Positions 1 through 64,000 of a DNA stretch of 64,000 bases are shown here, in pieces; the first letter of the stretch is position 1; each line of letters begins with the position of its first letter. The DNA lies in assembly GCA_036925085.1 (NCBI GenBank), contig JAUPFP010000016.1, forward strand, positions 3,925,903 to 3,989,902, given 5' to 3'. Under the pieces are notes generated by a model, which saw only the letters and a program-made list of their open reading frames with translations, had not been told where the DNA came from and searched no databases. The translations under genes and the position numbers were made by a program. The stretch comes from Brachycybe producta. Its lineage: Eukaryota > Arthropoda > Diplopoda > Playtdesmida > Andrognathidae.

Positions 1-361
1 GGTATTTTCATGATACCTTTCAAAATAAGGTTTTTTATGTCAGTTTAAAAATGACTCACTTTTAAATAGATAATTTTTTTAATTTTTGCTTATAAAAGTT
101 TATTTTAAAAGATACCTGCGTGAAAATACCCTTAAGAGATCGAGTTACTCTTCTAGTTTTTCTTAATTTTGCTCCTGAAAGACAGAATAATAAAAACTCG
201 AAAATCATTTTCCATAAACCATCTTTAAAAAAAACATGCAATTGAAAAAACAATGTCAATAAAGACATGAAATCCATGCAATGCAAATTACAAGCAATTT
301 TTAAAGACATTTTTTTACTAAAAGAAAATCGATACAAAAGTACATTCAAATAATAATACAA
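1..361. repeat. Family A foldback (MITE-like) element, partial, at left edge
   Basis: The block carries the core signature of family A, the commonest repeat of the window: a half reading roughly 'attttaaaagatatca', then 'cccttaagtgattgagcta', 'cccttctagtttctaaaaca' and 'gctcctgaaagacagaataa', with the reverse complement of the same string forming the other half. Here the left half is cut by the window edge (bases 1-60) and the right half runs to about 232. Family A ends in TTAAG(G/A)TGG-type termini and has no coding capacity that I can see, so it is probably a non-autonomous DNA transposon. Confidence 0.7.
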
Positions 362-393
362 GATGCAAATTGTGTTTGTTTTTCTTCTTTAGA

Positions 394-533
394 AGATGGA
401 CGTGCTTCTTTCAGAACATGATGATGACACGGAAAACGAACAAATGGTTCAAAATAGCCACGTAATCCTACCTCATACACAAATGACCATCTCTTTAGCG
501 AAGGCGACGGTTTTGTTGACAAACGGTCGAATC
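394..533 (+). CDS. Unrecognised exon of a gene that starts left of the window
   Basis: A pyrimidine-rich tract ending in TTTAG precedes base 394 and a GTAAG donor-like string follows base 533. The open frame between them reads ...MDVLLSEHDDDTENEQ..., an acidic stretch, then HVILPHTQMTISLAKATVLL and TNGRI. I do not recognise the protein. Either 534 is a true donor, which leaves little room for another exon before VPS25, or this is the terminal exon and reads on to a TAA at 594-596, overlapping the last VPS25 exon on the other strand by 42 bases. The balance of acidic and hydrophobic residues looks coding, but the call rests on splice-like borders only. Confidence 0.4.
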
Positions 534-554
534 GTAAGTAGTGCGAACGATATT

Positions 555-1830
555 TCAGAAAAATTTCACGCCTTCACTGCCATCTGTTGTAAATAACTCT
601 GCTTTTTTCTCGGTTTCCAATGTTTGAAGTGCACGAACAAGAATCCGTTCGTCGAGTCCGTGAAATTCTTAGTTAAAAAAAAAGTTAAGATATATAACTG
701 CAACCAAGCATATAAAGTAAACCTTAAAATACCTTCGTTAACGCTGTCATCACCGTTAATGATCTCGTAAAGAGTACAAACCGAGTTTGTCATACCATTG
801 TCATTAACCTAAAACGAAAATAACCGTTTTAAAGATAACGGTTTTGACACTTATTTGTGAAGTACTTGTCAAGTTACCCAACGATAGATGTGTTTTCCCC
901 ATTCTTCAGGCGTCCTCCAAAAAATATAACATCGTTTCTTTGATTTATCCAACCATTCCAAGTTACCTGAATGATTAAAGGGGAACTTGTCAGATATCAG
1001 TTTGAAATGTCATTATAACATTAGGTTCCAGTTTTGGTATGATTTAAATAGTGATTATTTTCCAATTTTTAATTTATTTTAGGTTTTTTATTACACTAAT
1101 GAAAGTATTGGCATAACTGGTGTTAAAAAATCTCGAATCCGAATATATTAAGGTGGTTTTAAAGTGCAAACTGCCTCTCGAACTCTTGAGTATTCTGTCT
1201 TTAGGTGGCAAACCGGAGAAAAACCCTGACTGTGTTTTAGAGACTAGAAGGGTAGCTAAATCACTAAAAGTATTTTCATTTATTTATTTTGAAAGCTTGC
1301 AACATGAAAATACCCTTAAGTGATTGAGCCTCCCTTCTAGTTGCTAAAACAATTTAAAGTTTCTTTTCATTGTGTACATGAAAAACAGAATAATCAGCTA
1401 TTCTGTAAATTTACGTTCTACGTATGTAAATTAGTGGATCCTTTTTTTAATAACCTTTTTGTCTCAAATCCTCCAAAACAACATAGAGTGAATCTCCAGT
1501 TAGTTTCCCTGTACAGTAAAGAACAAACATGAAAATAGGTATTGAAATTAATTTTAAGTAGAAAGAAGGATATACTGTCGAGATTTGCGTTATTGAAGAG
1601 TGGACTGTTGTGAGCTTCAGTCACATCTAAAACAAACAACTTATGAACACGATAATAGTTCAATATAAGTGACCTCCAGGCCTCCACTTGTTTCTTTCGT
1701 GTGTCAAGATTAGGTTGGATTCTAGGTAGAAAAAAAAAACAATCAACATATTAAAACAAATCGTAAATTTGCATATTTACGTGAAAAAAGGTGGAAAATT
1801 ATATTGCCATGGCCACTTATAGTCGGCCAT
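555..1830 (-). CDS. VPS25: Vacuolar protein-sorting-associated protein 25 (ESCRT-II subunit)
   Basis: Six minus-strand exons (1781-1830, 1576-1721, 1455-1508, 878-966, 733-808, 555-667) join in frame through GT-AG introns to 175 residues, the normal length of VPS25. VPS25 is present twice in the ESCRT-II complex (with VPS22 and VPS36) and recruits ESCRT-III to sort ubiquitinated cargo at endosomes. The family is two winged-helix domains; visible landmarks are the N-terminal PPFF (residues 13-16), through which each copy is known to hold VPS22 or VPS36, NLEWLDKSK and PEEWGK in the middle, and the closing EFHGLDE and EGVKFF. The start is the only ATG giving the WPWQY-PPFF opening. A 54-base exon (1455-1508) is easy to miss. 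Intron 3 holds a family A repeat. The gene is head to head with UBE2F. Confidence 0.96.
1149..1410. repeat. Family A foldback element in VPS25 intron 3
   Basis: Left arm starts TTAAGGTGGTTTTAAAGTGC at 1148 and carries 'gactagaagggtagct'; right arm carries 'acccttaagtgattgagc' and 'cttctagttgctaaaaca'. The loop is short compared with other copies. It lies wholly inside the intron between exons 1455-1508 and 878-966. Confidence 0.75.
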
Positions 1831-2769
1831 ATTATGTATATATCGCAGAATATTAGAAAACGAATAAGAGCGGACACTGAAGTTAGTTAAACGTCTTGAA
1901 GTCCAGGTAGCGCCACAATTATTTGAATCATTTAATATATTGTTAATTTAAAAACGATCGTTGCGCTCTCTAAACGTGGAAGTTATAACTAATGTAAGTA
2001 TGGACTGACCGGTCTTTTATTTTATCTTACTTGGGCTACTTATAATGACAATAAAATCAATTTGAACGTATTTTTTTGTAACTTTTAAAGCATAAAAAGT
2101 GTATAAAAGATAACACAAGAAAAGCGAATTATTCATGTTTTTATTGTTTAATGTGATTATTTTACAGATATATTGTGAGTTTTTGTTGGTGATGAGATTC
2201 CAAGGGGGCGACACAATGGGATAAATCTTGTACGTTATAGTAAGTTCTCTTACTTTCTATCCGCATTTTTACTGAATTTTCATTCCGTTTTTATATCAAG
2301 TAAAATGCGGATAAAAAGTAAAGCGTCTCGTCATTCATATGCTTTGCTGTGTGAATCTTTGTGAATCTCTTACATGATTTTCTTCAATGTCGTTTCCCTT
2401 GTGATATTTATTTTGGTGGCGCCACCTATTGGCTTTATTGTTGGTATTTTTTATTTAGATAGCTTTTGTTAGATGCGATTGAGATTTGTTTCGTTTGTTT
2501 CAGGACGGAAAAGGTATTCATGAAGGCATTTAAACGATTTTGGAGTTTGTGAGCCTCAGGTGAGACAAAAGAACCGTAATGACATGAAATTAAGAGATTT
2601 ATTCTTGCTCCGGTTTTTTTTTTGTTGATACTATTCGTTGATCACTGAAGACAGAAGTCAAAAAGTGTCAAAGGTCAATGTGTGATTCTTTTTTTTTTGT
2701 TGTTGTTATTGTTGTTATCGTAGATGTTTTAACCCCGTTTTATGAGCTTCGTTTTCATGTGATTTCGAC
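1831..2769. promoter_or_regulatory. Divergent intergenic region VPS25/UBE2F with a hairpin
   Basis: The two start codons are 939 bases apart and point away from each other, so the region must hold both promoters and 5' leaders. I see no TATA motif I would trust. An inverted repeat (ctatccgcatttttact near 2256-2272 and agtaaaatgcggataaaaag near 2299-2318) could form a hairpin in the UBE2F leader. The remainder shows nothing I can name. Confidence 0.45.
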
Positions 2770-7578: not shown

Positions 7579-10500
7579 TCAGTTATCGGATAACGAAGAC
7601 GGTTTATTGTTATTGTCGCAAGAAACGACATTCTTTTTCGTTTTCTTTATTTTACGTCGATTGTAGTTGACTTTCCATCCTTGATACTGCTCACTGTTAT
7701 CATTCTTTGGCCATTGTTTCGTCTCTTGAATGACGTTATTCGGATTTGATACATTTCCGTTCAAGTTATCTAAATCGTTATTGACGTTATTTAGATTCTG
7801 TCGAGTTCCTTCGACGATGTTATTTGTCATCGTTTCTCCTTCGCTACAATCACTTTCGCTGTTTTGTCTCTGTGCCATCAAATGTTTCTTCCTCAGGTTA
7901 CGTTGATGTTTCTTTCCTTTCGCTCGTTCTCGTTGACGTGCAATTATTGAGTTCAATCTGAGAGTAAGAGACAAAAAATGAAACAAAAGGAAAACGGTAA
8001 TCATATTTAAAACGTTTTATGAACAGCTAATTTTCGAAAATTCTTGTTTATTCTGCGTTTCATAAGCATAAAACTAATGAGAAATTTGAATGTGTGTGAG
8101 AAACTAGAACGTTGTCTTAGTATTTTCATGTTTGCTATCTTTCAAAATAAGCTTTTTATAGACAAAAATTATAAAAAATGTCGTCTGGGTCATTTCTTCA
8201 AACTGTCATAAAAAGCTTATTTTAAAAGATATCAAAAAATTGAAAATAATCTTCAAGTGATTGAGCTAGCCGTCTAGTTTCTAAAACATTTTCAAGTTTC
8301 TCTTAATTTTGCTCTTTGGAAAGACAGAATAATCAAAGAGTTCAAGGAGCATTTTAACCCTTTTTTGTTTCATACCTGAATACGTTTTTCATTACAACAC
8401 TGTTAAAATGTACAGATTTTTTGACGGTGGATCGTATTTCTCCAGTTAGACCTTCCTCCTCTGGAATATCCGAATCGACGGTCGTGTATTCAACCGACGA
8501 TGAGTAATTGACATCGTCGCTAGATTCGGATAATGTCTTACGACGTAAATGTTTCAGGATTCCTTTCGGACGGTTACTCGGACTCTGGCCGAGATCTTCG
8601 CAACCTCCGTCGCTCGATTCGGAAATGCTACGTAGTTTATTTAACTTCTGTCTCTGACGCTTCGACACTATTTTAAAAACGTAAAACAGAAAACCAAAAG
8701 ATTAAAACATATAAATTTCATTTAAAATGATCAATTCAAAAAACAGGATTTTAACATTTTATGTTTCCGGTTTTGCCGTTTTGCTCCTCCGCTACTATGG
8801 CCATTTCATTATCGGTATTTTGCGTCACAACTACTTTCTTTTCTTCGTCTTTTGTTTGTCTCTCTTCGTTAAACTGTTAAAAGAAAACGATAGTAATCAA
8901 TGAAAACAATGAGATTTCAAAATCAAATTGAATTTTTTTTATGTTGTTTTTTGCTTTTTTTTTAATGTTTTCAAATTATAGAAGCAATAATAAGAAGAAA
9001 TTAAGTGTTTTAGAAACGAGAAAAGTAACGGAATCACTTATGGGTGGTTTTAAATGCAAACCTCCCTTGAAATCTTGGTTATTCTGTCTTTTCAATAATA
9101 AAATTAAGAGAAACTTGAACGTGTTTCAGAAACTAGAAAGGGTAGCTCAATCACTTAAGGGATATTTTCAGTAGAACGTCTACTATCCATCATCTATCGG
9201 ACTGGATTGTTGGTTGGAACGCAATAAAGGTCTGATAATTATTATCAAATTGTACATATAATAATTTATTAAATTGTACAAATAATACTTTATCGTACGA
9301 TAAAATAAAATGTATTAAACATGTGCGTATATTTGATCGCAAAAAATTTTAATTTTAAAAAAGTCAGTAATATTAAAAGTAATAGCAAAAGTTAGTTAAT
9401 GTTTTATATGGAAGAAATGAGCGCGGTGCCGGTCGGTTAACCCAATGAGTTAGTTCATCAGAGGTCGGATAATCGAAGATCTAATAAACGTTTTTTTTTT
9501 GTTATTTTCAAAATGAACCAACTTTAAACAGATGACATTTTTTTTAATTATTTTTGCCTACAAAAAAAAAGTTTATTTTGAAAAAATTTCAACGTGAAAA
9601 TAGTAAATATTATCAAGTGCTAATATTATCAAGCTACCCTTCTAGTTTATAACATATTATTCAATTTCTCCTTAGTGTTGTTCGTTCTGAAATGGAAGAG
9701 TTCAAAAACATCTTATAAGAATATTTTTATAAACGAAAATAATTTAAAATAAACTTACTTTTATAATTTCTAAATTATTTTTTTTTTTAAAAAAGTCAAA
9801 ACACCATTTGATAAACCATTTTTAACTTTTAAAATTTATTTCATTTTCAAAACATCCATAAAAAAAGGTTAATTGTTTTTTTTTTAAGAAATCATTCTTT
9901 CTTTTTTATGATTCAGTTACTCTTCTAGTTTCTTAAACACGTTTTAATATCTTTATATTGTTTTTGAAATATAAAAATAACCAGAGTTCTAGAAAGTTTT
10001 TTTCATTTTTAAATAAAAGTGAAATTTACAATTTCTAAATAACGGAATAAATGAAAAAAATTCAAAGTTTTACTTGAAACTAGACTATAAGAGTAAATCT
10101 TATAGTCTAGTTTCAAGTAAAACTTTGAATTTTTTTCATTTATTCCGTTTTGTTGTTGTTCAAAATTTATTTAGAAATTGTAAATTTCACTATTTCACAT
10201 ATGTATAATATTCATGATATAGCTTTTAAAATAAACCTTTTAATTTATATTTACTTAATTAATATTATAATTTAATATTAAAGTTTATTTTAAAAGATAT
10301 CATCATGAAAATTATCTAAACACCATTATTTACTCGTCTAGTTTTAAGAAGCAACGTTTTTTTTTGCACAATTTCCAAAAAATTAAGAAATAAATAACAT
10401 TTTTTTTTGGAAATTTTCATCTTTATTTTTCAACTCTGATAATGAAAACTCGAAATCTTTTAAGGACCACACATTACTTTCACATCAATCACGAGACGAT

Positions 10501-14703: not shown

Positions 14704-14711
14704 TCGTAAAG

Positions 14712-14736: not shown

Positions 14737-14766
14737 TAGTTGGAAAACAATTTGAATATAACAATT

Positions 14767-17386
14767 CTAGTTTTTATTCAGCAATTGCTGTGCAATTGTA
14801 GTGCAAACGACCATCAATTGTAAATACTCGTCGGCTCCTTCGATTAAACGATGTTCCGATACCTGGTTTGATTTTTAAATTTTTTTAAAAAAAAAGAAAC
14901 ACACGTTATTTACATTTCAAATATGATCTTGGCCTTTCCTTTTTCTTCTTCCAAACTTACGGCAATGGATTCTAGAACGACGGCCTTCTGATTATCACTC
15001 AAGTTATCACAGGTCAGTATTTTATCGTGTAAGTCGTTGTAAATCTGATTCACAGCAAATCCTTCCAAAATAACATCCTTTTTTTTTTTAAAAAGGGGGG
15101 GCGGGAATGAGAAAATACATTTTTTAGTCTAATTTGTAACAAAGATCGATTTTAACCCATACTTGAACATATTCTTCGAGCTTTTCGTACGAACTAGCGC
15201 AAACTTCTATCAGTTTATCCAACCATTTATCGGGAACGATCTGAATGAGACAAAAGCAAATTTGAATTCCTCACCACCATTTAAGCTGGTTTTAAAATGT
15301 AAACGCCTTTTAAACTCTGGTTATTCCATCTTTCCGAAGCAAAAATAACAGAAACTTGAAAGTGTTTTAGAAACTAGAAGGGCAACTCAATCACTAATGG
15401 TTAATTTCATGTTGCAAGATGGGACAGATTTTAGTCTAAACACTTCTAAACAAATAATACTGTGAACTGATTCAGATGCCTTTCTAGTTTTTAACATGCT
15501 TTCCATTTTTACTTAAGTGTTGCTCTTCTGAAATGCAGAAAACCAGAGTGCGATTCCGTTGTTCGTTGCAATTGCTTTTTAAGTTCTCTTTGTTTCAAAA
15601 TGTTGAGATTACCCCAGCAATCTCATAAATATCTTCCACTTGTATCTCTTCGCTCTGTTTGAGTGTGTGACCACTCTGAAGCGTCGTAATCGCTTTTCTT
15701 AAATCGCCATCGCTCGTATTAATCAATACGTCTAAAGCTTTCTTATCGCATCGAACGTTCTCCAGTTCGCAGATTTCTCCGAGTCGTTTCACGAGAATGT
15801 CGTGACTGAGCTGTTTGAAACGGAACTTTGAACATCTGGATGTCAAAGGTTCGATAATCCTACTGATGTAATTGCATATCAAACAGAATCTCGTCGTTTT
15901 AGATTCCTTTTCCATTATTCGTCTTAAAGCGGCCTAGAATTTATTTTAAAAACCGACAGTCAACTACTTAAATAATATTCAAAAGCAATTGTATCTACTG
16001 CACCTGAGCAGCTGGAGTCATGGAATCGGCTTCATCGAGAATTATAATCTTCAACGGTAGACAGGGACGGCCACTTTTAACACAAAATATAACAAATCGT
16101 GAGATTATTGCACGAGATGAGATATATATACGAGACGTACTCTGGTCGATAGCCGCTAGCTGTCAATTGAGCAAACTTCTTTACTTTATCGCGAACCACT
16201 TGAATTCCTCGTTCGTCCGAAGCGTTCAGTTCCAAGATGCGAGCTCGAAATACATCTCTGACGACAATGAACGTAGTTGTGTATTAGTTTTCTCACTTAA
16301 GGTGGTTTTTAAAGTGTTTAAACGGCCCTCAAACTCTGGTTATTCAGTCTTTCAGAAGTAAAATTAAGAGAAGCTCAAAAGTGTTTTAAGAACAATCACT
16401 TAAGGATATAATCACGTTAATATATTTTAAAATAAGCTTTTTATGGCAGTTTATAAACGACCCAACTTTAAGCAGATGAATTCTGCTTAAATAATTAATT
16501 TTTGTACCTATAAAATTTATGTAGAAATAATGTATATCACCATCAAAATAGTATTAATTTTATTAAGTGATTCAGCTGCTGTTCTAGTTTCTAAAACACT
16601 TTCAGTTTCTTCTTAAGAGTTCCTTCTGAAACGCAGAACAACCTGAGTTTCGAAATCATTTGATTAGATTAGGTGATTAGAAGAATACCCAAATAACTGT
16701 CTTCCCATTGCCAAGATCGTAGACGTTTTTCCCGTACCAGGTGGTCCATAAAATAACAAATTCGGTAACTATAAAATTATATACATAAATGTAAATTATA
16801 CAGACGTGGTTGAGACAACCACGTTGATCGACCAAAATTGAACGGTGTAAATTGTGCTTTATGCTTATTCTTCAAATGCCATGCATTAAATGCTTCTTCT
16901 TTTATATTACAATTAATTATTTCACTGGAATTGGAATTTTACAATCCCTTTACTTTTTTTTTTTTGTGATAGACACAATTTATGATTAAAAAGCCAGGAT
17001 GGACAAGCCAGAATTGACAATCTGTACCCGTCATAATACAATGGCACATCTGTTATCGTTGAAACCGTGAATACAAACAGCTTTAACTGAATTTTAACAA
17101 CTCACATCCGCTCCTTGAAGGACTTTCTTTAAAACAGCAACTACCTCATCCTGTTGAACAATATCATCCACTGTTTTCGGGCGACTAAAAACAAAAGAAT
17201 GGATTATTATTGTGGTAAGCAAATTCTGCAAATATATAAATTGTCAAATATAAATTCTATATCACGCTATTTCTCAATCCATGGTGTATTAGCTTTTACA
17301 GTAGATCCTGTTGTTTCTTTTGAAGTTGAAGCAACAGCATCTGATTGGTTTTGCTTTGGTTTAAATCCTATCAAGAAGTTTTCCAT
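14767..17386 (-). CDS. RFC4: Replication factor C subunit 4
   Basis: Nine exons (17268-17386, 17106-17184, 16689-16768, 16141-16257, 16004-16073, 15613-15933, 15163-15240, 14961-15077, 14767-14862) give 358 residues (human 363). RFC4 is an AAA+ ATPase of the RFC1-5 clamp loader that opens PCNA on primed DNA, and also of the checkpoint and cohesion variants. Walker A GPPGTGKT is at residues 74-81, Walker B DEAD at 145-148, and the arginine-finger SRC at 187-189. [18 protein letters not shown] and the collar helices at the C-terminus (GADEYLQLM) fit RFC4 rather than RFC2. Exon 1 can only be joined to exon 2 with the conserved Tyr-Arg-Pro-Lys intact if intron 1 begins with GC. Two family A repeats lie in introns 6 and 4/3. 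Confidence 0.95.
15270..15590. repeat. Family A foldback element in RFC4 intron 6
   Basis: Left arm 'taagctggttttaaaatg', 'agaaactagaagggcaactc'; right arm 'tgattcagatgcctttctag'. It ends about 20 bases from the exon that stops at 15613. Confidence 0.65.
16285..16670. repeat. Family A foldback element in RFC4 intron 3
   Basis: Left arm 'taaggtggtttttaaagtg' and 'gaagctcaaaagtgtttta'; right arm 'taagtgattcagctgctg' and 'ttctagtttctaaaacact'. The left arm has lost the central 'actagaagg' motif. Confidence 0.7.
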
Positions 17387-17700: not shown

Positions 17701-17769
17701 ACCAGATGTTTGCTGCCATCTATTAGTAACATTCTCATTAATATTAAAAAAAAAATTAGCCAAATTTGC

Positions 17770-18440
17770 ATTATTTAAAATGTTTTATGAAAAGCTGATT
17801 TTCAAACTCGAGCTATTCTCTGCGTTTCAGAAGAGCAACACTTAAGAGAAATTGAAAGTGTTAGAAACTAGAATCCTCAATCCCTTAGTATATTTCACAA
17901 AAATTGAAAAGAAAAAAAAAATCTCTGCTTGAAGACAAGTTGAAGTTGACTATTTTTAAACAAGCGATAAATAATTTGTTTTGAAAGATATCAACGTGAA
18001 AATATTCTTAGTTGATTAAACTAGCTTTCTAGTTTCTAAAACACTTTCTAGTTTCTCTTGACTTTTCAGAGTTCGAGAGACATTTTCACTTTAAAACAAC
18101 TTTACGATGATTTTATGAACAGCTAGCTGATTTTCAAACCCTGGTTATTCTATCTTTCAGGCGCAAAATTAAAAGAAATATTAAAAGTGTTTTAGAAACT
18201 AGAATTGTAGCTCAATCACTAATTAAGAGTATTTTTATGTTCATTTCTTTCATAAACTTTTTATAGACAAAAAAAAATCGTCGATTTAATGTTAGGTCAC
18301 TTATTTTAAAAGATATAAATATAAAAATATCCTTAAATGATTGAGTTACCATTCTAGTTTCTAAAACACACAAGGTTTTTTTTTAAATTTTGCTTCTGAA
18401 AGACAAAATAATAAAAGGGCTTTAAAACCACAACTTAAAA
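17770..18440. repeat. Two adjacent family A elements between RFC4 and TMTC4
   Basis: First copy: 'gttagaaactagaatcctc' (left) with 'gattaaactagctttctag' (right, about 18015). Second copy: 'tagaaactagaattgtagct' (left, about 18195) with 'aatgattgagttaccattc' (right, about 18335). Apart from these and the TTTATT at 18492-18497 (minus-strand AATAAA, 53 bases past the TMTC4 stop), the gap holds nothing I can name. Confidence 0.7.
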
Positions 18441-38294: not shown

Positions 38295-38325
<31 letters not shown>

Positions 38326-50292: not shown

Positions 50293-50479
50293 TACATTGC
50301 ATAAAACATGTCGAGAATGAAGACTGGAGGAAATCATTTCATTTTTTATCATTATTTTACATAATGCAGAAAAACTACCAGATCGTTTTTTAAAACGTCT
50401 TTTGAATGAATTTAAAAGATTTATTTGAACCTAGAAAATGGATGAATTTGTGTTATCAAAATTAACTTTTATGGTCAGT

Positions 50480-50765
50480 TTGGAGCAAAATTTAAAGAGA
50501 AACTTGAAAGCGTTTTTTTTTAGAAACTAGAAGAGTAGCTCAATCAGTTATGGGTAATTTGATGTTAAAATAAGCTGTCTTTATGTGAGTTTGAAAATGA
50601 TACAATTTTCAGCAGACGACAGTTTTATAATTGTTTTCTATAAAAGTTCATTTACAAAGATATCAACATGAAAACACTATTAATTGATTCAGCTATCGTT
50701 CTAGTTTCTAACGCACTTTCAGTTTCTTCTTTGTGTTGCTCCTGAAATGTAGGAATGACCAGAAA
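50480..50765. repeat. Family A foldback element
   Basis: Left arm 'agcaaaatttaaagagaaac', 'tagaaactagaagagtagct'; right arm 'aaagatatcaacatgaaaac', 'attgattcagctatcgttct', 'agtttctaacgcactttcag'. About 300 bases past the 3' end of the MFSD6-like gene. Confidence 0.7.
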
Positions 50766-51071
50766 ACTTAAATCACCTTCAAACAGACAACAAAGTTTAT
50801 TTTCAGTAAAAAAATATATATGTATCTCCAAACAGTCTTTTTGTTTGAGAACATTTGCATCTTCATTTAGTCCTCCAGTTTCATTTGAAATTTAACATTT
50901 TCATAAGTAGTTTTCACCATTGTTCTCATGGTTTTTATGTTTTCATGCATCATGTTCTAAATTATTGTTACCACTTATACTCATGAGTCTTGAGTGGAAA
51001 CGTACCTTTAAAATGACAAAAAATGAAATAAATTTCTTCAGGAATTTTTTTTTTCGTAAAGTCTTTAGAAG

Positions 51072-54000
51072 TCAGCAGTGGACAATGTCTGCTTCAAATG
51101 CTACGTTCTGTGTTCCGTTAACTCTTTCCTCTGCTTTCTTATGTTTTCCACTTTCTTGATACTCGATCGAACTCTCTGATTCTTCCGTTTGTACTGCATT
51201 TTCACTATTTTGTACTTGATTGTATTTATGATCTACTTCTGCCTGGATTACGTGGTGATCCTCTTTGGCACCTGATGGAGTAAGTAATGATTGCAAATAA
51301 TAATGAGAGAAATGGTTCTTTTTTTGTTGTTGCTAGTTATTTGTTCGTATATATATAGATGGTCTTAACTGAATTAGAACACACATCGCCACTTGAATTA
51401 AGTTAGTTGTAACGCCAATTACACGGGAGCAAATAATAATAAAAATATATATATATAAGCTCTCTCTCGGCATCTTCGAATTGTGTCATCGAAGTAGCAG
51501 CGAAGCATGTTCTAGATTTTGATGGATCACCTGCCAGATCAACAATCTCACGGTTGATTGTCTCTTTGTCAGGCGTCCAAAAACTTTGGACTATTATGAC
51601 GTAATGATGTCTACTTTTAGTGACCTAACCTTTGTTAGCGAATTCTACCTTAAGCCTTCTGTTTCTTCTTTTCAAGAACATATGAGAAATGATGAGATAA
51701 ATGGAACCGATAACAAGGCACGCTACACCCATCACTTGAAAACTTGTTCTCGAACCGACGAAAGCCATGAGGTAGCCACCGACCAAACTTCCTGCTCCTT
51801 TGCCTAAGGGGCGAAAAAAATATGAATGTCATAATTTTATTGATTTATTTCACTGTCTTCTTTCGAAGTACTTTTTTTAAGGTGGCTCAATAGTGATTTC
51901 TAGGTGAATAAAGTAAACATAAACTTTGTTTAGAAGCAACTTTATAAGAAGTTTTCGGGGTTGTTTTGTGTTTCAGAATTAACACTAAACAGAAATTGAA
52001 AGTGTGTTAGAAACAAGAATGGCAGTTGAATTACTTGAGGTGGCTGAATAGATATTTCTTTTGTTTTTGTCTCTTTATGGCGCCATTCCAATGGCTGATG
52101 TTATATAGAGCTTATAACAATGGCTGATCTTCTCCCCCCACTTTCAGTTTTGAGAAAGTTTTCTTTTTCAAGCGAACGTTTTTCAGGAGAAACATTACAA
52201 AAAGATTCAAAGTGTTTTAGAAACTACAATAGTTGATACTTTATTTTAAAAAAAATATACTTTTTACGTCAGTTTCAAAAAAAGGTGAAAATAGTTTTTC
52301 GTGAATTGTCAAACAAAAAAACCTAAAAACGGGTCATTTTCAAACTGCTATAAATTTTTTATTTTTTAAGATACTGCCATGAAAGAACTTTTATCATAAT
52401 ATTCTACCATTCTAGTTTTGAAAACAATTTGAATTTTTTTTATAATGTTGTTTTTTTAAAAAAAGTTCGCTCGACGTTTTTGCTTTCAAATTTTCCAAAA
52501 ACGTCAATGGAACTTAGCTTATATTGCACTGTTGAGGCGCCATCTGGGTGGGACAAAAACAAAATAAATATATATTCAGCTACGTTAAGATGGTTTATGA
52601 AGAGCTGAATTTCAAACTGTAATCATTCTGTCTTTCAGAACCAAAATTATGAAAAACTGGAAAGTGTTTTAGAAACTACAACAGTCAGGTCAATCACTTA
52701 AGATTATTTTCACGTTGATATCTTTCAAAATGAACTTTATATAAACAAAAATTAATAACCATCATATGCATTTCAAACATACATAAAAATTTATTTTAAA
52801 GTATATCAAACATGAAAATACTCTTTAAGTGATTGAGCTGCCTGTTCTAGTTTCTAAAACACTTTCAATTTTTTCTTAACTTTGTAAAATTATAACTTAG
52901 CAAATTTACTGATGAGCCAGTTTAAGATTGTTTTTGTCATTTTTACCAATGCCATATTGCATTCCTGTCATGATTCCTTGAGCACTGGCTAAAATGCTCG
53001 TCGGTGCCAATTGAGCCGTGTAGGTGACGGCGGCCACCGATTGAAGGCTGTTCGTAAAAGCTTCCAGGCTTTCGAAAGGCAGACAGAGATAGGGATTTCT
53101 TACGAATGAATATCCTGTATGTCGTATTACATTTAATTAGTTTTCGACAATATCTTTACTTGTCTATCGTGCGACACTTACCAAAAAAGCGAACTCCGTA
53201 AAGAAAGAAAGCTAAGATGAATACATTGATGTGACCAATTTTCTTGAGGATGACTCCAGAAAAGATAAGCATTGGTATACCAGACATTGCACCAACCGTT
53301 ACTGTAAGACCCATTAGTGATTCTGTTGCATTCATTTCTTGCAGAAACCAGAAGAGGAATCCTTCCAAATAACCCCAGAATGAACCTGGAAGATAAAAGT
53401 TTCGACATAACATTAATTTTAATTAAATTCTTTAATGAATAATGGGGAGTATCCAAATGCTTGGAAGTTTTACTCACTGTATCGAGGGGGGGGGGCATTT
53501 TTCCAGAAGATTCTTTTTTAGATGAAGACTTTGAAGAGAGATGAGTGAGAAATTGAGAGTGAGAGAAATTAAGAGAAAGAGAGAGATAAATTGAGAGGGA
53601 AAGAGAGTGTGTGTGTGTATGGTACGATTATGAGTCCAGTTTACGTTCCGTGGATTCTTGGGGGGGGGGGGGGGAAATACTCTGCAGCGGTGATGACACT
53701 ATATAGCAGTTGACGCAACCACGAGGGGCTAAGGGGCTGAAGCCTCCAGGACTTAAACCCCCCTTTAGCTCTTCAGATCTCCCGGAAATATCAAATACTT
53801 TTTTGATATTTAATTAGCCCCCCCCCCCCCCGGGTCCAGAATCGCGGTTGCTCTACTGAGTTGGATACTCCTACCTTCATTAGGATTTTCCTGCTAACGT
53901 TTCACATGAAAAAGTTTCACGAGAATTCTGGTTGAAAACAACTTTTAAGAAGAAAAAAACTAAGCTTTTTTATATACTAGAAGAGTAAAACCTAAAGGTA

Positions 54001-57000
54001 TTCTCATATTGATAATTTTTCATTAAAAAAAGAAACGTTTATATCATTTTTATAATCACTAAGTTTTTGGAAATTATCACTAGATTTTCGGTCCAACTTG
54101 AAGTGAAAAACAAGAATCGAAACTTTGGAATTGCCATAAAAGGTTTTATTTTTTTGAAAGATACGGTATTGCAACTTCGATTATTGTTCATAACTCAGTT
54201 TGAAGAAAATAAGCTGTACGGAAAATCGAGACCGTGTTTTTGGCCTCACATCAAATTTCACTTAACATTGCGCCTATGGTATCATATAGCACGTGCACGC
54301 TATATAGTGTTTAGACCAGGTGGGTTCTTAACCTTCATATCATTACAGAGACCCCTGATGGATTGCCCATTTTGTCCTCATACCCCCTTTGCTAGACTGT
54401 TCAAATCATCATCATCATCACCAGTTCTATTTACAAATTACCAGTATGTCAGAGAGGTCGAGTTCCGAAACCGCCATTATTTGGTTTCCATACCCTCGGT
54501 TAAGAACATCCTGATTTTAGGTTCTTAAAAATGGCAACAATTTTGATAATAATTGTTCTCTTTTTTTCTGCTTACCCATAAAGAACATCATAAGCACAAA
54601 GATAATGAATTCCACATTGCTCAAAAGTGTCTTCACTTCGTGGCATAATGTCTGTGTCGGCATTTTGAAGTCCATATCGAAGAAAGGCACAATCATGACA
54701 ATAAGTATTCCACATGTTGAATATACGTAGAATGCCACGTTATAATTCGGTTTTTTGCTTTCGACACTGGTGTGATCGATGAGAGCTCCGGTCATCGGAG
54801 AGAAAATGCACATGGCAACAGCTCCCAAAAGTTTCTGATGTCCATAATCTGCTTGATGAGTTTGCGTCACTTGCAAAATGATGGCTTCCAAGAGTACATA
54901 AGTGGAGGAAGACAAAAGAGTCCACACTGATCGTACGACCAGGTAAATCCAGAAGGTAGATTTATTATGTTGCTCGATGTTTTGACACAGTGTCTCACTG
55001 GACAGATGACCGCTGCAGCTTATGGAACATTGGACGTCACTCGAGGAAGAACTGCAAGAGAGACCATCGAACTTGGAGCCATTGATCTCGATGGCTGTAT
55101 ATTCGAACGCCGTGTTTACGACGATCGCGCCGATTTGCGTTTGTTTCGTCGGTCTCAATCCAACGAACTTCATCGAGTTCGAATCGGACTCGTAGGCACG
55201 TAACGATACACAAACACGTTTGATTGATTCTCTACCCTGAAAACACGCTTTGTTTTCATAGTTTGGTATTCCACTCCAACATGTCTTCGAACACTGACCA
55301 ATTGTGAAAGTAACGTTGGCACCGTGAGGAGTTTGAAGCGTACATGGCTCAGTAAAGTCTTGAACGAGTAACTGAGGTGACGGTTTCCTCTGATGTGGAC
55401 ATGGTAGAGACCAGGTTAGAGGAAATTGGTAAGGAATACCACTTCTAGTTGGAGGAACTAATATCAGACAGTCTGCTGAAATTATGTTTAATATGCAAGT
55501 CACAATGAAGATCACCTGAAAAGAAAAATTAATGATTATATTTTTTGCGTTGTTTCGGTTGGTTCAAAAGTAAGTTCGCATAAGTTTCAAATTGCAAATT
55601 TACGCAATTCTTGCAAAAAAATTTTTTACAATCGAAACTTATTATGCGTTTGGAAAAAATAACTTTTAAGAATAATGTGAATGTGTTTTAGAAACTAGTA
55701 AAATGGTTTTCAAAGTTGGCACAGTAAGACCGGGTTCACACGGACCACTTTGTGACGCCACATAAAATAGTCGTTTTTAGCCAGACCATTGATTATTACA
55801 GTAGGGCAGTGGTTAGCAAACTTTTTTTGCTCACGGTACAGTATTTTGTGTCGGAAGAAATTGTGGTATGCCTTGAAAACCTCATGGCACGCTAGTGTGT
55901 CACAGTGTTTTGTACGGGACTCAGGTCTCGATTCTCTTAGTTTGGGGCGCGTACCGCCTTAAGCTGAGAGAGTGTATGATTTAGACCTGATTCCGTACGG
56001 TGCCGGGGTCGTTCTCATTGGTATTTCCTGTTGAACGCAATTGTAAATAAGAGAATGTTAATGAATAGACGTGATGAATGCAGGTTGACGATGTTACTGA
56101 TTTAATGCACACAACCATTAGAGTACACTAAACAGAGAAGAGTTACAGAGTGTGGCGTTGCTGAGCCACCGGACCATTGAATGAGTTATTTCATATTTCG
56201 ATATCAGAGAATGGACCCCGAATCAATGAAGACACGGACCTTTATACCTTGGACCTGTGTGCACCTACACAAGTACACCCATGCCAAGGAACCGTGCTTT
56301 GATGGGTATCCATCTGGCCTATTCCGGAACCAGGATGTGATTTACTTTTGCTGGTCTCCTTAGTAGAGAAAAGTGGCGGAAATGTGTCACTTGGGGAACA
56401 AGGGAAGATGAAATACAGGGTGTTATTTAATTATAAAGTAAAGCTGTTTTCAAACATAATCGAATTTCCGGAAGTGTAATTTACTAATTAAACGCTATGC
56501 AACTTCAAAGTTTGCATTTTGTTTAGCGTTATTGATTAGAATTTCAAACGTTTTAAGTACTGTACTAAAGCCAGCTACAGATTTGCATATTTTTTCCAAA
56601 CATAACCATGTCATGTAACGCAATACTCTTACTGTTGCGTGTGGACGCGATTGCAGAAGAGCAACAACAGTAAAAACTTAAGTCTTTTAGAAACAAGAAT
56701 GGTACCTGAATCACTTAATATTTTTTTCCATGCATGATATCTTTTAAAATAAACTTTTTGTCACAAGTTTGAAATATGACATTTTAAATTGTGTTCATAA
56801 AAAAATTATTTTGAAAGATGACATAAAAATGAAAATACTATTTAGTGATTCTAAATTTACAACACTTTCAGTTCCTTCTAAGCGTTGCACCTGAAACCCA
56901 GAGTATCGAATTGTTTACACAAAACATTTTAAGAAGAAATGCAAAAAAGGGAAATCTTATCAACTTTAAACTCTTATGGAAAGTTGTATTTTTAAGGATA

Positions 57001-60000
57001 TTATCATGAAAATACTTTTAGCTTATTCATCTACTATTCTAGTTTTTTAACATGCTTTTAATTTTTTTTTCCGTATAATGTTACTTCTGAAGTAGTTTAC
57101 GTTCACTTCATCATTTCATCGCTCTACCATAATAACATTAAATTTTAATCTGCGTAAAGGCTTTATTTAGTAAACTGCTTTAGGCCACTTTTGAAACTTT
57201 GTGTTTACTTATGAGCTATTTTTCTACTAATATTATGAATTGTTTAATATTAGTTGTGTAAGAAGATATTAAGTTATGCATTCATTGCATAATATATAAG
57301 GTAAAATTAATTATGTATAAACTGCAGAGCCTACTAATTTGTTAAGCGTTAATTAATAATAACTTGAATACACATTTTGATTATAATTATTGTTTGTAAC
57401 ACATTTTTATTATATTGTGTGTCTTAATTTGATTTCACTTTGATACTAAATGTGAAAGCATTTCTTATTTTGCAATTATGTGTCTATACATTACATCATA
57501 TGTGGCTTCAAAAAACGTAAATATTTGATAGAAACTAGAATATTTGCCGAATTACACTGAGCGCAAAATGAGCCGGGTCCACATCAAGCTGACAAAAGGG
57601 CAACATGGGTTCGAGACAAAAACACAACAAATATGCCAGAAAAAAACAGGGTTTGAAAATAAAACAAAATTGAAACAAATGTCAGCAGTACTCACTGTGA
57701 CACAACACGAACAAATTGGTTTTTGTTTTTGTATCTGATCTACGTAAACTACCGTAACTATGCAACTGTTCTGTTGTTGTTTTAATACTACTGTCCACAC
57801 TGCACAGACAGAGTTGACAAAATGTTGCTTAGTATCGAGGCAAAACAAAAACAGTTTAATGTTTACCAACTTGAGCAGGGACATGGAAATGTTTGTGTAA
57901 TTGCAAACAAAAACAAAACACAAAAGTCGCAGAAATGTTTTAGAATTGTCGCCAGTTTATTTCGAAACACTTGAGTTTTTGTTTTGTTTGTGTTATGTCA
58001 GCTTGATGTGGATCCAGCCAAAGACTAATTCTTTAGTTCTGTGAAGAAGAATGATTGATTGCTCCACCTCCTAGAATTTACGGATTTCCTTGATTTTGCC
58101 ATTTGCGTTTCAAGTATGAGACAATAAAAAGTCTGGTATGAGGAGGCCATGGTGCAAACATGACGTCCACAAACAGTTTGTTTTTTTTTCTTGCACGAAC
58201 TTTTAGGAATGAATGTAAGTTAATATATTCAATTTTCTATATAAAAAGTTTATTTTGAAATATATCAGTATGAAAATACTACTATTCTGTCTCAAAAATT
58301 AAAAATAATGTCGTCTGCTTAAAGTTGTGTCTGTTTCAAACTCACATAAAAAGCTTCTTTTGAACGATATCAACATAAAAATTCCGTACTCTTAATTGAC
58401 TCAGCTGACCTTCTAGTCTATAACACTTTTCCAATTTCTTTTTAGTGTTGCTCTTCTAAAATGCAAAATAACCAGCATTCAAAAATCAGCTGTTTATAAA
58501 ACATTTTAATTTATTTACTACACATATTTTGATGGCACAATTTTTTTTGTTTGGTTCAGTGTGATTGTGTAACAAGTTCACACCAACACAAGACTAAAAA
58601 AAAGAAGAAGGTATGCAAATAATTTGAACAATGGTTTAAATTCCGACCTTGACGTGTCCCAGTTTATCTGCCAAGATGCCCATGACAGGTGGTGCCAAAA
58701 AGGCGATTATTGGAAGTAATGCATAGATGAGGGCTGTTTCAGCAGCTGTTACTCCCAACGACCTCAGATGGACTGTCAGGAAGGGGAAGAGACTGTAAAC
58801 AGCTAAAAATGGACACATAACATTAGTTGCAGCACACACACACACATTATTGAAGGAAATCTTTTGTCTTGTGATTTCCTCAAGGCATTTGACAGAGTAA
58901 GAAGCAAAAGTGGTGGAAGCAAAAAAAGGAAGGTGAAGTATAATAATAATTGTGGGGTCTTATTGCTATTTATTTCTAACAATGAGTCACATTGGTTGAG
59001 CAATTAGGGTCGAATTCTTAGTGATTGCTAAGTCAAAGGTAGTGCTCAACGCAAGAACTTTTCATAGGAAGTTTTATGTAAAAGTTAATGAGTTGAGCAT
59101 TAGCATTGACTTAAAACCATTAAGAATATGACCCTTATAGTTTTGCGAGAAACTTTCTAAATTTATTTCATATAACTTGAATTTGGAGAGGAACTTGATG
59201 GTTGCTTTATTTGTGAATTTTTTAAATGTGTCTTTTATTTTTTACATCATTTTTAAAATTGGTAATGGACACAAGACTTTTATGCAAATCAACATAAGAA
59301 AGGAATGTGAAACTATGCCTGTACCTTTTTTTAAAAAATGTTTTCATAATTACTATGAAAATCATTTGCATAATTTGTAAAAACAAAAAACAAAAGGAAA
59401 TGCTGCGAATTAATACGCGAATCTTTTTTGATGCAAACACCAAGCGCGCGCCAAAAACGCGTGCAAAAGTTAAAATTTACGTAGAAATCTATGGCAATTT
59501 AAAAAGTTTTTTTTTTGTAATTGCTAACATGGGTGCAGAATAATTAGTAATTTTTAAATAAAATGAGGTGATTTTTTTTACAGACTGAGAGCTATGCCCG
59601 CAGGATCCCTGCAACAAGCCTAAATTAACCTAACCAAACTTATGATAACCAAACCCAACCTAACCTAGGTTAACCTAGTCCACCCATACAATGCATAGGG
59701 AAAAAAAACTTTGAAATGTCATAGACCTCCATGTAAATTATTAACTTTTGCCCACGTTTTTGTACGTGTTTGGTGTTTGTGCCAAAAATTTTTTACATAG
59801 ACCTATTCATACTCGTCTCGACAAGCTCTTTTCAATGAGGTCAAGTAAATAGCTTCTAGAATATTCTAGAATTATACCCAAAAATTTGTACATTTTGTAA
59901 CATTTGTACAAATCAAGCTGAAAAAATAAAATGAATTTGAAAAACTGCAATTTCTTTTAAAAAAACGTCTTGACCAATTTTCATTAAAATTATTTTTGTA

Positions 60001-63000
60001 TAATTTCTAATTAAAAAAAAACAAATGCTGCAAATGATTTTTAATACTTTTAACACTATTTTTAAATTTTAATACTAATAATTTTAAGTTAAGAGAAGAA
60101 AAAAAAGGATTAATTTTATAATGAAAAAAAAAGTCACTTTTGTGTTTTGAGATGACTTGTCAAGTTTGTTTCATTTGTATATAAAGAAGTGTTTCTTTCA
60201 ATGTTACCTTACGGACCCCCTCTGGCCATTCAATCTTCTGAAACATGGGTTGTTGTGTATTTTTTTTTTCAAGGGTGAAAGCCCTCTCTCTCTCTATGTA
60301 GTTTTATGAAACACATCATAACTTCTTTTTTTTTTTTACCATAAGTCAAAATCCTTTTTATCCTTTCAAAGCACTCTCTCTTAGTATTCATATTATTATT
60401 ATTATTATTATTACATGTATTATCTTTATGGTATGTTTCATTTTAACACTTTTTGTACCATGACAACATTCAATTTTTGAAAACAATTTCTTATATAAAT
60501 AAGTTTATGTCATTTATATTTGTGGTTATATTGTTTGTCATCTATGTAAATTGTCTTTTTTTTTCATATAAGTTTAACAAAATTTTTTTTTACTTAAAAG
60601 TTTAGCTTTTTAATAAAGCACTTACCTGCCATTAATAGAGCATAAATTAATTTGATGGGTAACAATTGTTTCTTGCATAAATCTGTCCAAACTTCCACAA
60701 GTAAATTTGGTGGATACATTGTTTTTTGATGATGAAGCACAACATTCATTTAAGGTGTCTTTAAAAGGGCCCCTCTCTATGATGTCCTCAATATGGCCTG
60801 GTGTATGTGTGTAGTGTCTACGTGGTAAAAAAAAATGTTCGTTCATCTAAAGGAATGTATTTTTTTACAGGATAGTTAAAGTTGCATACATTCATACATA
60901 GCTCTATCTCTTTTCTCACACATGATGCACAACATACACATACTTACTATGTGCATATGTGTTTTTTTTAAAAACCTGTTTGATCACATGACTGGCCATG
61001 TTTTATTTTTTTGTGGGTGATTGAATGAGGAAGCTGGACTTCCTGTCCTGGCTACTACCAATTGTGTTATATCGATGTTTAATTTAATTCGTATCATTAA
61101 TTAAAAATTTTACATGATGGTTTTTTTAAAATTTCTGTCACATCTGTGGTTACAAATACATAATTATGAGAAATTATACCTGATATACAGGTTGCATGCT
61201 TTTTGTTTTTGGTTGGGGGATTTTATTAAACAAAATTAAATTTTTTTTTTAGTTTATTATTTAAAATTTTAAGTTTTCATTAATTTGTTAAAATAAATAT
61301 TAATGAAAACTTATTCAACCATTGTAAATGTATATTTCAGTCGGTATTCTAAGGAGGACGTAGCCCATTCAGTCTCTAGGACATTGATCCTTAACCCTTT
61401 TTTTTCTGGTCTGTAGGGAATCAGGTATATTGGCAAAAGAAGATTGAAGAAAAAGTTCAATGTACACTGCCAACCAATATCAAAGTGGGCCCACTTAAAC
61501 AAAACTGTAGAGAAACCTATATTTAAATATGTTACCACATCACTGTGCATAAAATTAGTCATAATTCAATGACGAATGTGTATGGAAGAAAGATGCAAAT
61601 GAGAGACATTTGTATTTTTTTTTGGAGAACTCATTTGAATAATGTAATTTTATGATGAAATTTGTTATTTTTTTTTCTTTCTTCTTCAAAGTATTTATGT
61701 TTTGAATACAATGAATATTTTAAAAGGTTATAAAAAATACACTAAAAATGAAATCTGTGACAAGATGAACAAATTGTTATAGATTATTTTAATGACATTT
61801 GACTAAAAAAAAGATTGTTTTCAACTTGTGAGGATTATATTTTTTTTCTGTGTTTTTTGAAGCTTCAAATTCAATAATGGCATTTTTGTATTAAAAATCA
61901 TAAATAGACATTTTAAGAAGAGAGATGTGTTTTTCTAATGTAATCAGAAGAAAATTTAATTATTGTTACGTGTTTCTTCCTTTTCTTTTGTTTTATTATC
62001 TCTTTATATATGAGTTTTATACTTTCTCCTCTCTCTCTCTCTCTCTCTTTTCTGTGTCTATGTGTTTGTAAGGTGAATAACACTTTCTCGTATTTGATGC
62101 CATCGTTCATTGACGTCAAATATTTTAAATCACTTATTCAATGAATGCAAAACAAAATTCAATATACTTAAACATTCACTCAAGTGGTCCACATTATGAC
62201 GTGTATTAAGTAAACTAGGGGACAGGAAGTTAATATACTTTTTTTTCATCACACACATACCCACACACAAACATATACAAAATGCTTATAGTTTTATTTC
62301 CAGTATTTATGTCATAATTCATAACTTATTTCTTTTGGCAATAGTTTTTGCATTGTGAAGGAATTGGATTAGCTGTCATATGATAAACATAATACTTTTC
62401 AGTAATAATGAATGACCCCTTCTTCTACAACTTAAGTTGGTCTAAATTGCAAACGGCCTCTCGAACTCTTGATTAGTCATTCTGTCTTTCAGGTGCAAAA
62501 TGAAGAGAAACTTGAATATGTTTTAGAAACTAGAATGGTACCTCAATCACGATAATGCTGATATTTTTTTCAAAAGAAGCTTTTTATGTCAGTTTTAAAA
62601 TCACCTAACTTATAGCAGGCGACATTTTATAATTTTGCTCTATTAGAAAGTTTATTTTAAAAGATATCAAAATGAAAATGTGTTTGAGCTAAACTTTCTA
62701 GTTTCTCTTAATGTTGCTCCTGAAACAACAAAATAATCGAGAGTTCAAACATCAGCTGTTCATAAACCATCTTAAATGCATTTAAATGTTAAATATGTTC
62801 TGCATAGGTTTATTAAGAGGCCTTATACACACATGAGTTAAATGATTTCAAATTAAATGTGTTTAGATGAATTATACGAAATCCAGTTAAGGACATGAAC
62901 CCAAATAAAAATTGACTTTACTATTAATATTTTAAATTTAAATACTAAATCAATAATTTGTCAATAGTTTCTATCTTATATTTAAGTATTAACTCAATAT

Positions 63001-63751
63001 TTTGATATTATTAACTAAATAAATGGAATTCGCCATATTGTTTGTTTGTCCTTCGCAGGGCTCTGTAGACCACATTTATCATTTAAATGCATTTAAATTA
63101 TCAAGTGTGTACTAGGTATTAGTCAATATGTATTAAATTCACTATAGTCATTTAATATCTAAGTATATATTGAGTTAATATTTAAATATATTCAATTTCG
63201 TATGTCAATAAAATGAATCAGCGTAACAAAACATTAGTTTAGTATTTCAATATTTTCAGATAAGAATGAAATCTGGACTCCCGAATAGGTCACCCAGGTT
63301 AGGATTATAATTATCTTGATTTCATTTAGCTAAAGTGTAGACTAGGTTTTTGTCCATTTCTCATTGAGAAATGGTCATTTTTTATTTTAAGCTGGTTTTA
63401 AAGTGTAAACTCCTCTCGTAATCTTGATTTATTTGTCTTTCTGAAATAAAATTAAGAGATACCAGAAAGTGTTTTAAAAACTAGAAGGGTATCTCAATCA
63501 ATTAAGGCTATTTTCATGTTGATATCTTTTAAAATAAGCTTTTGTTGTCATTTTAAAATTGTATATTTAAAACTATATTTTTTTAAATTTGTGTCTTTAA
63601 AAAGTGGATTTTGAAAGATATCAACGTGAAAATGCTCTTAAGAGCCTACAGTGAAAAAAAACTTACAAAAATCTTCGCATGTAGGCGCTTCTGTAGCTGT
63701 GACGTCAACATGTGGCAAAAAAATCAATTTTGATACACTTTTGTCCGCCAT
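51072..63751 (-). CDS. MFSD6: MFSD6-type major facilitator superfamily transporter
   Basis: Seven exons are secure: one ending at 60626, then 58648-58802, 54576-55515, 53182-53385, 52947-53114, 51630-51803 and 51072-51271. Phases agree at every junction. The start is less sure. An exon at 63667-63751 (MADKSVSKLIFLPHVDVTA...) ends in phase 1 at a good GTAAG donor and can join an acceptor at 60682 or 60691, giving about 660 residues; otherwise an ATG at 60747-60749 gives 654. Landmarks: KKQLLPIKLIYALLMA (helix 1), FLTVHLRSLGVTAAET, PPVMGILADKLGHVK (MFS loop), a large cysteine-rich loop in exon 3, FWGYLEGFLFWFLQEM, IPMLIFSGVILKKIGH, QLAPTSILASAQGIMTGMQY, GKGAGSLVGGYLMAFVGSRT. Substrate unknown. 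The last exon is hydrophilic. Symbol given at family level. Confidence 0.85.
51885..52034. repeat. Family A left half abutting a family B element
   Basis: 'tgtgtttcagaattaacac', 'aaattgaaagtgtgttagaa' and 'caagaatggcagttgaatta' run straight into the family B terminus at 52034. Confidence 0.6.
52034..52587. repeat. Family B foldback element, copy 3 (most complete)
   Basis: Left end cttgaggtggctgaatagat / atttcttttgtttttgtc, then atggcgccattcc; right end ggcgccatctgggtggg / acaaaaacaaaataaatata / tattcagctacgttaag. Arms extend about 60 bases before diverging. Internal 'gttttagaaactacaatag' and 'ttctaccattctagttttg' again match family A. Confidence 0.75.
52585..52905. repeat. Family A foldback element joined to family B copy
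   Basis: Left end taagatggtttatgaagagc / tgaatttcaaactg, 'tagaaactacaacagtcagg'; right arm 'aaagtatatcaaacatgaaa', 'taagtgattgagctgcctg', 'ttctagtttctaaaacact'. It shares its TTAAG with the right end of family B and ends about 40 bases before exon 5 of the MFSD6-like gene. Confidence 0.75.
53455..53900. repeat. Low-complexity tract: GA-rich, GT run, poly-G and poly-C
   Basis: GA-rich 53520-53610, GT repeats near 53605-53618, poly-G near 53660-53674, poly-C near 53820-53832. A small hairpin (ggggctaaggggctgaagc and ctttagctcttcag) lies near 53728-53776. Such homopolymers are likely sequencing trouble spots. Confidence 0.7.
54312..54517. mobile_element. Short element with hAT-like ends
   Basis: caggtgggttcttaaccttc at the left and cctcggttaagaacatcctg at the right are inverted with a few mismatches. 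CAG...CTG outer bases and TTCTTAACC motif fit hAT-type ends; I could not find a clean 8-bp duplication. It is in the intron before exon 54576-55515 is reached on the plus strand. Confidence 0.55.
55560..58500. repeat. Repeat-filled intron 3 kb long in the MFSD6-like gene
   Basis: Family A fragments at about 55640-55710, 56640-57120 (left arm 'ttttagaaacaagaatgg', right arms near 56840 and 57000) and 58220-58480 ('ctgaccttctagtctataac'). A string cagtggttagcaaacttttt / ttgctcacggtac at 55826 resembles a hAT terminus without an obvious partner. An inverted pair around gtacgggactcaggtct (55913) and agacctgattccgtacgg (55982) follows. The foldback at 57571-58019 is listed separately. Confidence 0.55.
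57571..58019. mobile_element. Foldback element with 23-bp ends
   Basis: gccgggtccacatcaagctg / acaaaa at the left pairs with gtcagcttgatgtggatcc / agcc at the right, with two mismatches. The interior is rich in caaaacaaaa/ttttgtttttg strings. A 123-codon open frame across it on the minus strand is low-complexity and not supported as a gene. Confidence 0.65.
58850..60600. other. MFSD6-like intron with a short CCTAA-rich stretch
   Basis: Mostly AT-rich sequence with no gene. Around 59620-59675 the string aacctaacc recurs (taacctaaccaaac, cccaacctaacctagg, ttaacctag), reminiscent of the arthropod telomere unit TTAGG on the other strand but too short and irregular to be telomeric. An ATT microsatellite is at about 60386-60411. 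Confidence 0.5.
60760..62430. other. Upstream part of the MFSD6-like gene, mostly featureless
   Basis: AT-rich sequence between the probable first exon (63667-63751) and the second. A CT dinucleotide run is at about 62029-62049. An open frame at 61311-61504 is phase-compatible with the first exon (see findings) but I do not accept it as coding. Confidence 0.4.
62440..62780. repeat. Family A foldback element with mosaic ends
   Basis: Left end ttaagttggtctaaattgca / aacggcctctcgaac is the 'TGGTTTTAAAGTGCAAAC' subtype, while the right end catcagctgttcataaacca / tcttaa is the 'GGTTTATGAACAGCTGA' subtype. A mosaic suggests recombination or template switching between subfamilies. Confidence 0.75.
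63380..63650. repeat. Family A foldback element next to the right-edge exon
   Basis: Left end taagctggttttaaagtgta / aactcctctcgtaatc, 'taaaaactagaagggtatct', 'atcaattaaggctattttc'; right arm 'gattttgaaagatatcaacg', 'tgaaaatgctcttaag', truncated after that. It ends about 15 bases from the splice donor of exon 63667-63751. Confidence 0.7.
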
Positions 63752-64000
63752 TTTCTCTCTTATCGATGGATAAAAGTGGGTATATTTTAATAACGACTCT
63801 TTTTTGGGTAAATATGCACTACTGAAAAAAGGAAGAGCAACTTTTGATCTACAATGGTGAGTAATTTGAGTCGTATACAATTAGTGGTCAAATTTTAGGG
63901 TATCATGAAACTTATGGTTAGTGGGAAGTTTGATCCTATAAAATGTATAAACGGAGGAGCGTTTGTCGCCTATGGGATTTAACATGAGCTAAAAAAATAC

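Follow-up and report, generated by a model that had tools for sequence, protein, structure and literature searches.

An abundant, decayed TTAA-flanked MITE family, probably of Kolobok type, in Brachycybe producta

Foldback (FB) elements in the strict sense have arms built of tandem subrepeats, and Sola3 has a TTAA target and a terminal motif of its own. Kolobok elements are described as producing TTAA duplications and as carrying 5′-RR and YY-3′ termini, a feature that sets them apart from piggyBac (PMC9587614; PMC6004289), and the insect survey, with its 6,012 MITE families, gives an average length of ~386 bp for Kolobok MITEs (PMC5199201). The terminal motif reported for piggyBac is CC[C/T]T, and the piggyBac/TTAA MITEs of corals (CMITEs) are characterized as ~100 bp units with a conserved core and varied ends (PMC2872659). 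Here we examine a repeat family in 64,000 nucleotides of Brachycybe producta DNA (assembly GCA_036925085.1, contig JAUPFP010000016.1, positions 3,925,903 to 3,989,902), referred to below as the window. The family is probably an old, non-autonomous TTAA MITE of Kolobok type, mobilised in trans; we place this reading at a probability of about 0.72, the filing being based on the target and termini.

The preliminary description of this DNA had reported two strings recurring several dozen times. Allowing up to three mismatches, these strings have 27 and 36 matches in the window, against 0.03 and 0.04 expected from shuffles. Comparison of the window with itself yields 843 local matches covering 10,827 bases, a figure for all repeats of the window together. 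An arm model, consisting of a 161-position profile of one arm built by iteration, detects 63 arms in the window (7,364 bp, or 11.5% of its length) and 157-158 in the window plus 28 sampled loci. Of neighbouring arm pairs lying within 200 bp of one another in this combined set, 51/76 are convergent, in agreement with the inverted pairing first noticed. The family is also not rare beyond the window. In the whole assembly (295.3 Mb, 442 contigs), a family 20-mer has 19,612 forward and 19,801 reverse matches at up to three mismatches, 39,413 together, against 6 + 11 = 17 for its reversed control. Twenty pre-set 10-kb stretches (L009-L028; L001-L008, which were chosen by motif, are left out of this abundance sample) hold a further 68 arms, or 3.9% of their 195,000 bases without N. 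Scaled to the genome, this corresponds to about 103,000 arms, the bootstrap interval being wide (48,000-165,000). The copy number is probably in the tens of thousands, and both the 20-mer count and the scaled estimate represent the high copy number characteristic of a MITE.

The element is ~290-380 bp long and is organized as TTAA, a left end, inverted arms of ~160 bp, a right end and TTAA, the copies being decayed pieces of this plan. Read inward from TTAA, the consensus arm runs GATGGTTTATGAACAGCTGATTTTCGAACTC...GTGTTTTAGAAACTAGAAGGGTAGCTGAATCACTTAAGAGTATTTTCATGTTGATATCTTTCAAAATAAACTTTTTATAG. The strings agatatcaacatgaaaat and atctttcaaaataagc, initially taken for a loop, are in fact the inner part of the arm and its complement. 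The terminal ~25 bases exist in two forms, L (GGTGGTTTTAAAGTGTAAAC..., also GGTGGTTTTAAAGTGTAAACG) and R (GATGGTTTATGAACAGCTG...), and the flanked termini can be written TTAA-GGTGGTTTTAAAG and CTGTTCATAAACCATC-TTAA. Both forms begin with a common outermost GRTGGTTT, differ over the next ~20 bases, and then enter the shared arm. All seven pairs of L/R-type ends, measuring 288-379 bp end to end, combine one L with one R, never two alike. L and R are therefore the two ends of one element, which replaces the earlier proposal of two end subtypes. A G-type relative of ~530-550 bp (window 47320-47846 and 52035-52588) has different ends (TTAAGGTGGCTGAATAGATATT) and aligns with the arm model over the inner two thirds of that model. 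Copies in the window are given below.

87..222, reverse strand: single arm, R end near 227
1153..1398, forward strand: element whose L end is at 1148 (TTAA); the other end unrecognised
8007..8354, forward strand: paired element, R-type end at 8007 (TTAA)
8977..9170, forward strand: nested pair, host arm broken at its internal TTAA by an element with L end at 9039
15281..15553, forward strand: paired element lying between RFC exons; L end (TTAA) at 15281
16297..16664, forward strand: paired element inside or next to the RFC gene; L end (TTAA) at 16297
17775..18105, forward strand: element, R end (TTAA) and L end (read from this side, its target is now GTAA), directly adjoining the following element
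18102..18420, forward strand: element adjoining the 17775..18105 element via a shared target (TTAC)
19109..19487, forward strand: element in a TMTC intron flanked by Pfam-matched exons; both ends, L and R, with TTAA
20326..20494, forward strand: R-end half element, followed by a G-type element starting at TTAA at 20523
20523..21018, forward strand: G-type relative (starts TTAAGGTGGCTGAATAG...), nested, right end unrecognised
22001..22363, forward strand: arm cut near its internal TTAA (now TTTT), then an end-truncated second element; TMTC intron (exons by eye)
23857..24159, forward strand: paired element in a TMTC intron (exons by eye); R-type end at 23857
37608..37904, forward strand: among the 18 paired elements of the window, the one with the strongest hairpin (z -15.8, longest helix 34 bp); R end with TTAA
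47320..47846, forward strand: G-type relative, TTAA at both ends
50482..50779, forward strand: paired element
52035..52588, forward strand: G-type relative in the internal TTAA of an arm (51958-52040), right TTAA common with the next element
52585..52884, forward strand: element with R end, directly adjoining the G-type relative; next to an MFS exon and in an intron (further exon by eye)
56652..56909, forward strand: paired element between Pfam-matched MFS exons
58345..58509, reverse strand: single arm, R end and TTAA at 58509
62432..62775, forward strand: element, L end (TTAA) and R end (TTAA)
63387..63645, forward strand: element, L end (TTAA), right arm truncated

Judged by the length of the 51 paired elements (189-372 bp arm to arm, too short for a transposase gene), the units are short and lack coding capacity. 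Terminal inverted repeats are evident from the convergent close pairs and from the common GRTGGTTT. With TTAA insertion sites, defined ends and many short non-coding units, the family deserves the label 'MITE-like' under which it was first described, the point against this reading being that ~160-bp arms are long for a classic MITE. The companion term 'foldback' does not apply in its strict sense. A tandem-repeat scan of the window returned 13 rows, none of them constituting arms (a weak 2.3-copy row at 18009-18053 overlaps one), and a strict foldback element, which would need arms made up of tandem subrepeats, is rejected.

To avoid bias in assessing the insertion site, 50 ends were located by queries that start just inside TTAA and leave the flank unused, omitting rows with start >3, end <18 or E >1. 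An exact TTAA precedes 27/50 ends (L 8/17, R 13/23, G 6/10), where the background rate over all positions is 1.24%. Conservation is strong at each of the four TTAA bases and at background from base -5 outward. The other 23/50 ends have no intact TTAA, which counts against the insertion model; among the 14 of these misses that were listed, 8 are one base away from TTAA. Only 4/11 end pairs carry TTAA on both sides, one of the four overlapping another pair, which likewise counts against the model. The TTAA at the 27/50 ends and on both sides of these pairs is taken as a target site duplication of fixed sequence. A separate BLAST set of 57 ends (rows with query start >6 or end <24 set aside) was obtained with a query that included TTAA, so that its 33/57 TTAA ends are biased and the 27/50 figure is used instead. 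The 57 still count one 'G' end at L004 that is an internal core match and no end.

There are several TTAA-inserting superfamilies to which such a family could belong. Directly inside TTAA, the consensus termini are GG (L and G-type) or GA (R), with ends GGTGG and GATGG, and thus follow the 5′-RR...YY-3′ pattern (GG/GA...YY). The combination of a TTAA duplication with these termini, and with no CC[C/T]T, therefore makes a Kolobok-type MITE the most likely assignment. TTAA and RR alone are also compatible with another TTAA-inserting superfamily such as Sola3, and the possibility that the family is a non-autonomous member of Sola3 or of piggyBac is one we consider unlikely. The TTAA observed at the ends fits Sola3 as well as piggyBac. 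For piggyBac there is the further likeness that it has known MITEs, the coral CMITEs, described as having a conserved core and varied ends (PMC2872659); however, CC[C/T]T is absent beside TTAA in the consensus ends, and piggyBac is rejected by this terminal motif.

Counting against the Kolobok reading, neither a Kolobok transposase nor a full-length partner was found among ORFs of the sampled loci. Pfam detected no DNA-transposase domain in 45 ORFs, out of 104 that passed the filter, or in two sets of 60, partly the same ORFs. The domains recovered were reverse transcriptases and an integrase zinc-binding domain, and 1/45 ORFs has its match in the family of haemolymph juvenile hormone binding proteins, a pointer to an arthropod that comes from this single ORF. 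By eye, long frames at L012:661-3663 and L014:1-4008 resemble a non-LTR and a Gypsy-like retrotransposon respectively, and L010:4405-6051 holds a tandem-like array, rich in G+C, in which several frames of either strand are open. A search for longer copies at single-arm loci led, in the 3-kb locus L003, to an R end and one arm with no second arm; beyond this arm lies host sequence with glycine- and tryptophan-rich frames. Five family words retrieved no paper from open-access full texts, a result of little weight for the suggestion that the family is undescribed, since repeat libraries seldom appear as printed text.

Self-nesting at TTAA sites inside the arms is the most unusual trait of the family. 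The arm model has internal TTAA sites at positions 109-112 and 59-62. In the 57-end set, four ends (window 9039 and 52035, L010 2058, L028 1435) adjoin another copy's arm cut at 110-111, inside the 109-112 site, and a fifth (L004 1686) adjoins an arm cut at position 61, in the 59-62 site. Counting against this pattern, L009 1389 adjoins an arm whose cut is at position 73, a point without TTAA in the model. An element start at window 20523 sits in the loop of another copy, and one target site is common to two elements at 18102/18105 and again at 52585/52588. Nested copies act as empty sites for the family's insertions. At L010:1391-2136, a G-type element lies between two outer main-family arms, both cut at the same internal TTAA, as if the centre had been replaced. 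One may conjecture, with considerable doubt, that reuse of internal arm TTAAs by the family and its G-type relatives bred new landing sites and let nested composites grow (L010:1391-2136, window 51958-52884), a process possibly begun as a palindrome inside a palindrome.

Such a beginning would be a composite 'matryoshka', in which the central TTAA of an outer palindrome once received an inner TTAA-GGGTATTTTC...GAAAATACCC-TTAA unit and the pair then spread together. We judge this origin very improbable. The TTAA at 109-112 of the arm is followed by purines, other elements occupy exactly this site in the four cases above, and both outer arms around the L010 G-type element are cut there; the strings that bear on the question are AGCTCAATCACTTAAGTGATTGAGCT and lone TTAAGGGTATTTTCATGTTGATATC units. 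An uninterrupted outer palindrome, however, is absent from the window at up to three mismatches, and a looser search of window and loci gave two six-mismatch matches, neither a clean palindrome. The outer arm is missing for only 2/30 inner-unit matches, one of which starts mid-unit while the other belongs to an element with a whole left arm. Additionally, TTAA is self-complementary, so that any TTAA within an arm also appears in its partner.

The family appears to be old, because its arms are only 80.2% identical to the consensus (118 arms). The two arms of one element are 72.6% identical (range 64-84%; 34/52 pairs, those with fewer than 90 shared positions being set aside), against 70.4% between elements (746 comparisons; resampling p 0.019). 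With within-element identity barely above that between elements, both sides have decayed almost independently, close to the outcome of neutral decay. Strong maintenance of the hairpin is rejected on these values, and the sequences give little sign that pairing was maintained over time. RNA folding of the 51 paired elements, each compared with 20 dinucleotide shuffles, gives a median z of -5.4, with 30 elements below -5 and a longest unbroken helix of 16 pairs at the median and 34 at the maximum. Folding thus predicts the long hairpins that had been anticipated for transcribed copies, and hairpins in transcripts are likely under this model. A host-maintained hairpin RNA family, its arms kept by selection or gene conversion as, for example, small-RNA or editing substrates, is nevertheless a highly improbable explanation. 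It could draw on the folding in excess of shuffles and on the slightly greater likeness of arms within elements, but this excess of ~2 percentage points is explicable by subfamily structure, z lies above -5 in 21/51 elements, and the arm identities are low. A search of the window against Rfam families gave no match, by which a known structured RNA is rejected as well.

Several genes of the window carry copies in their introns. Genes for RFC (14.9-15.9 kb), TMTC (18.8-21.8 kb) and an MFS transporter (52.9-59.0 kb) are defined by Pfam-matched exons; for TMTC, inspection by eye alone adds more exons as far as 24.5 kb. One RFC exon (14913-15128) and one TMTC exon (21039-21233) score below the Pfam cut-offs. 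Copies lie between Pfam-matched exons of RFC (15286-15553), TMTC (19116-19485, 20332-20975) and MFS (56652-56909). GTF2F2 is represented by one exon, which matches PDB chain 1f3u_A (E 6.8e-5) and falls below the Pfam cut-off, and profilin is recognised by Pfam. The 24.2-34.4 kb stretch that holds these two genes has no arm. At 40.0-40.3 kb lies a nudix-type exon, with a match to ADP-ribose pyrophosphatase (1q33_A).

Density across the genome is uneven. That the family 'saturates' its surroundings is a fair account of the window but not of the genome, since arms are absent from 9/20 sampled stretches, half of one of these nine being N; the family share is 8.8-13.4% of bases in five stretches and 0.9-5.3% in six. 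With the element bases taken out, the five family-rich stretches are also the five lowest in G+C (Spearman -0.57, p 0.009). The window, itself family-rich, has 31-39% G+C outside arms in 14/16 blocks of 4 kb, and G+C alone is therefore no explanation of density. The idea that element-rich means gene-rich finds no support: among the 60 longest filtered ORFs per set of five loci, a Pfam domain occurs in 0/60 for the rich and 1/60 for the poor. Family-rich and family-free stretches can share a contig, as do L019 and L020 on contig C4. Other inverted repeats, with words in common among L020, L022, L026 and L027, are found in stretches without this family, and inverted pairs within 1.5 kb account for 18,727 of 200,000 sampled bases overall. 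The window also contains four better-preserved palindromes that match only themselves, at 19528-19741 (92% self-complementary), 42557-42731 (89%), 10015-10194 (78%) and 32999-33185 (76%).

Under the Kolobok-type reading, a two-ended (L, R) MITE with ~160-bp arms would have inserted at TTAA, moving by cut-and-paste in trans through a Kolobok-type transposase encoded elsewhere in the genome. Its amplification would be old, with copies later decaying almost independently and serving as mutual targets through the TTAA sites inside their arms. Hairpins would be a by-product of the long inverted arms, and copies within introns would leave pre-mRNA with imperfect double-stranded stretches. The mechanism and the kind of element are ordinary; its number of copies is unusually high. 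A single decayed MITE family accounts for ~4% of the genome as sampled and for >10% of a gene-bearing window, with some of its copies between exons. It illustrates the way introns can be shaped by a TTAA-inserting MITE, and offers a well-populated case for testing the effect of hairpin-forming introns on editing or splicing.

Much like FB elements, the family has long inverted arms able to fold back; unlike them, it has defined, TTAA-flanked ends and no tandem subrepeats forming the arms. The coral CMITEs, as described (PMC2872659), share with it the TTAA target, a conserved core with different termini, and tandem or nested copies, whereas they are given as ~100 bp with CC[C/T]T and this family is ~290-380 bp with GGTGG/GATGG. 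There is also a likeness to Kolobok MITEs, in the accounts available for insects (iMITEdb) and for the Xenopus T2-MITE: TTAA, 5′-RR...YY-3′, a length of a few hundred bp and high copy number. By description, those MITEs end in AGGRR, whereas the present family ends in GGTGG/GATGG and has, in addition, ~160-bp arms and distinct left and right ends.
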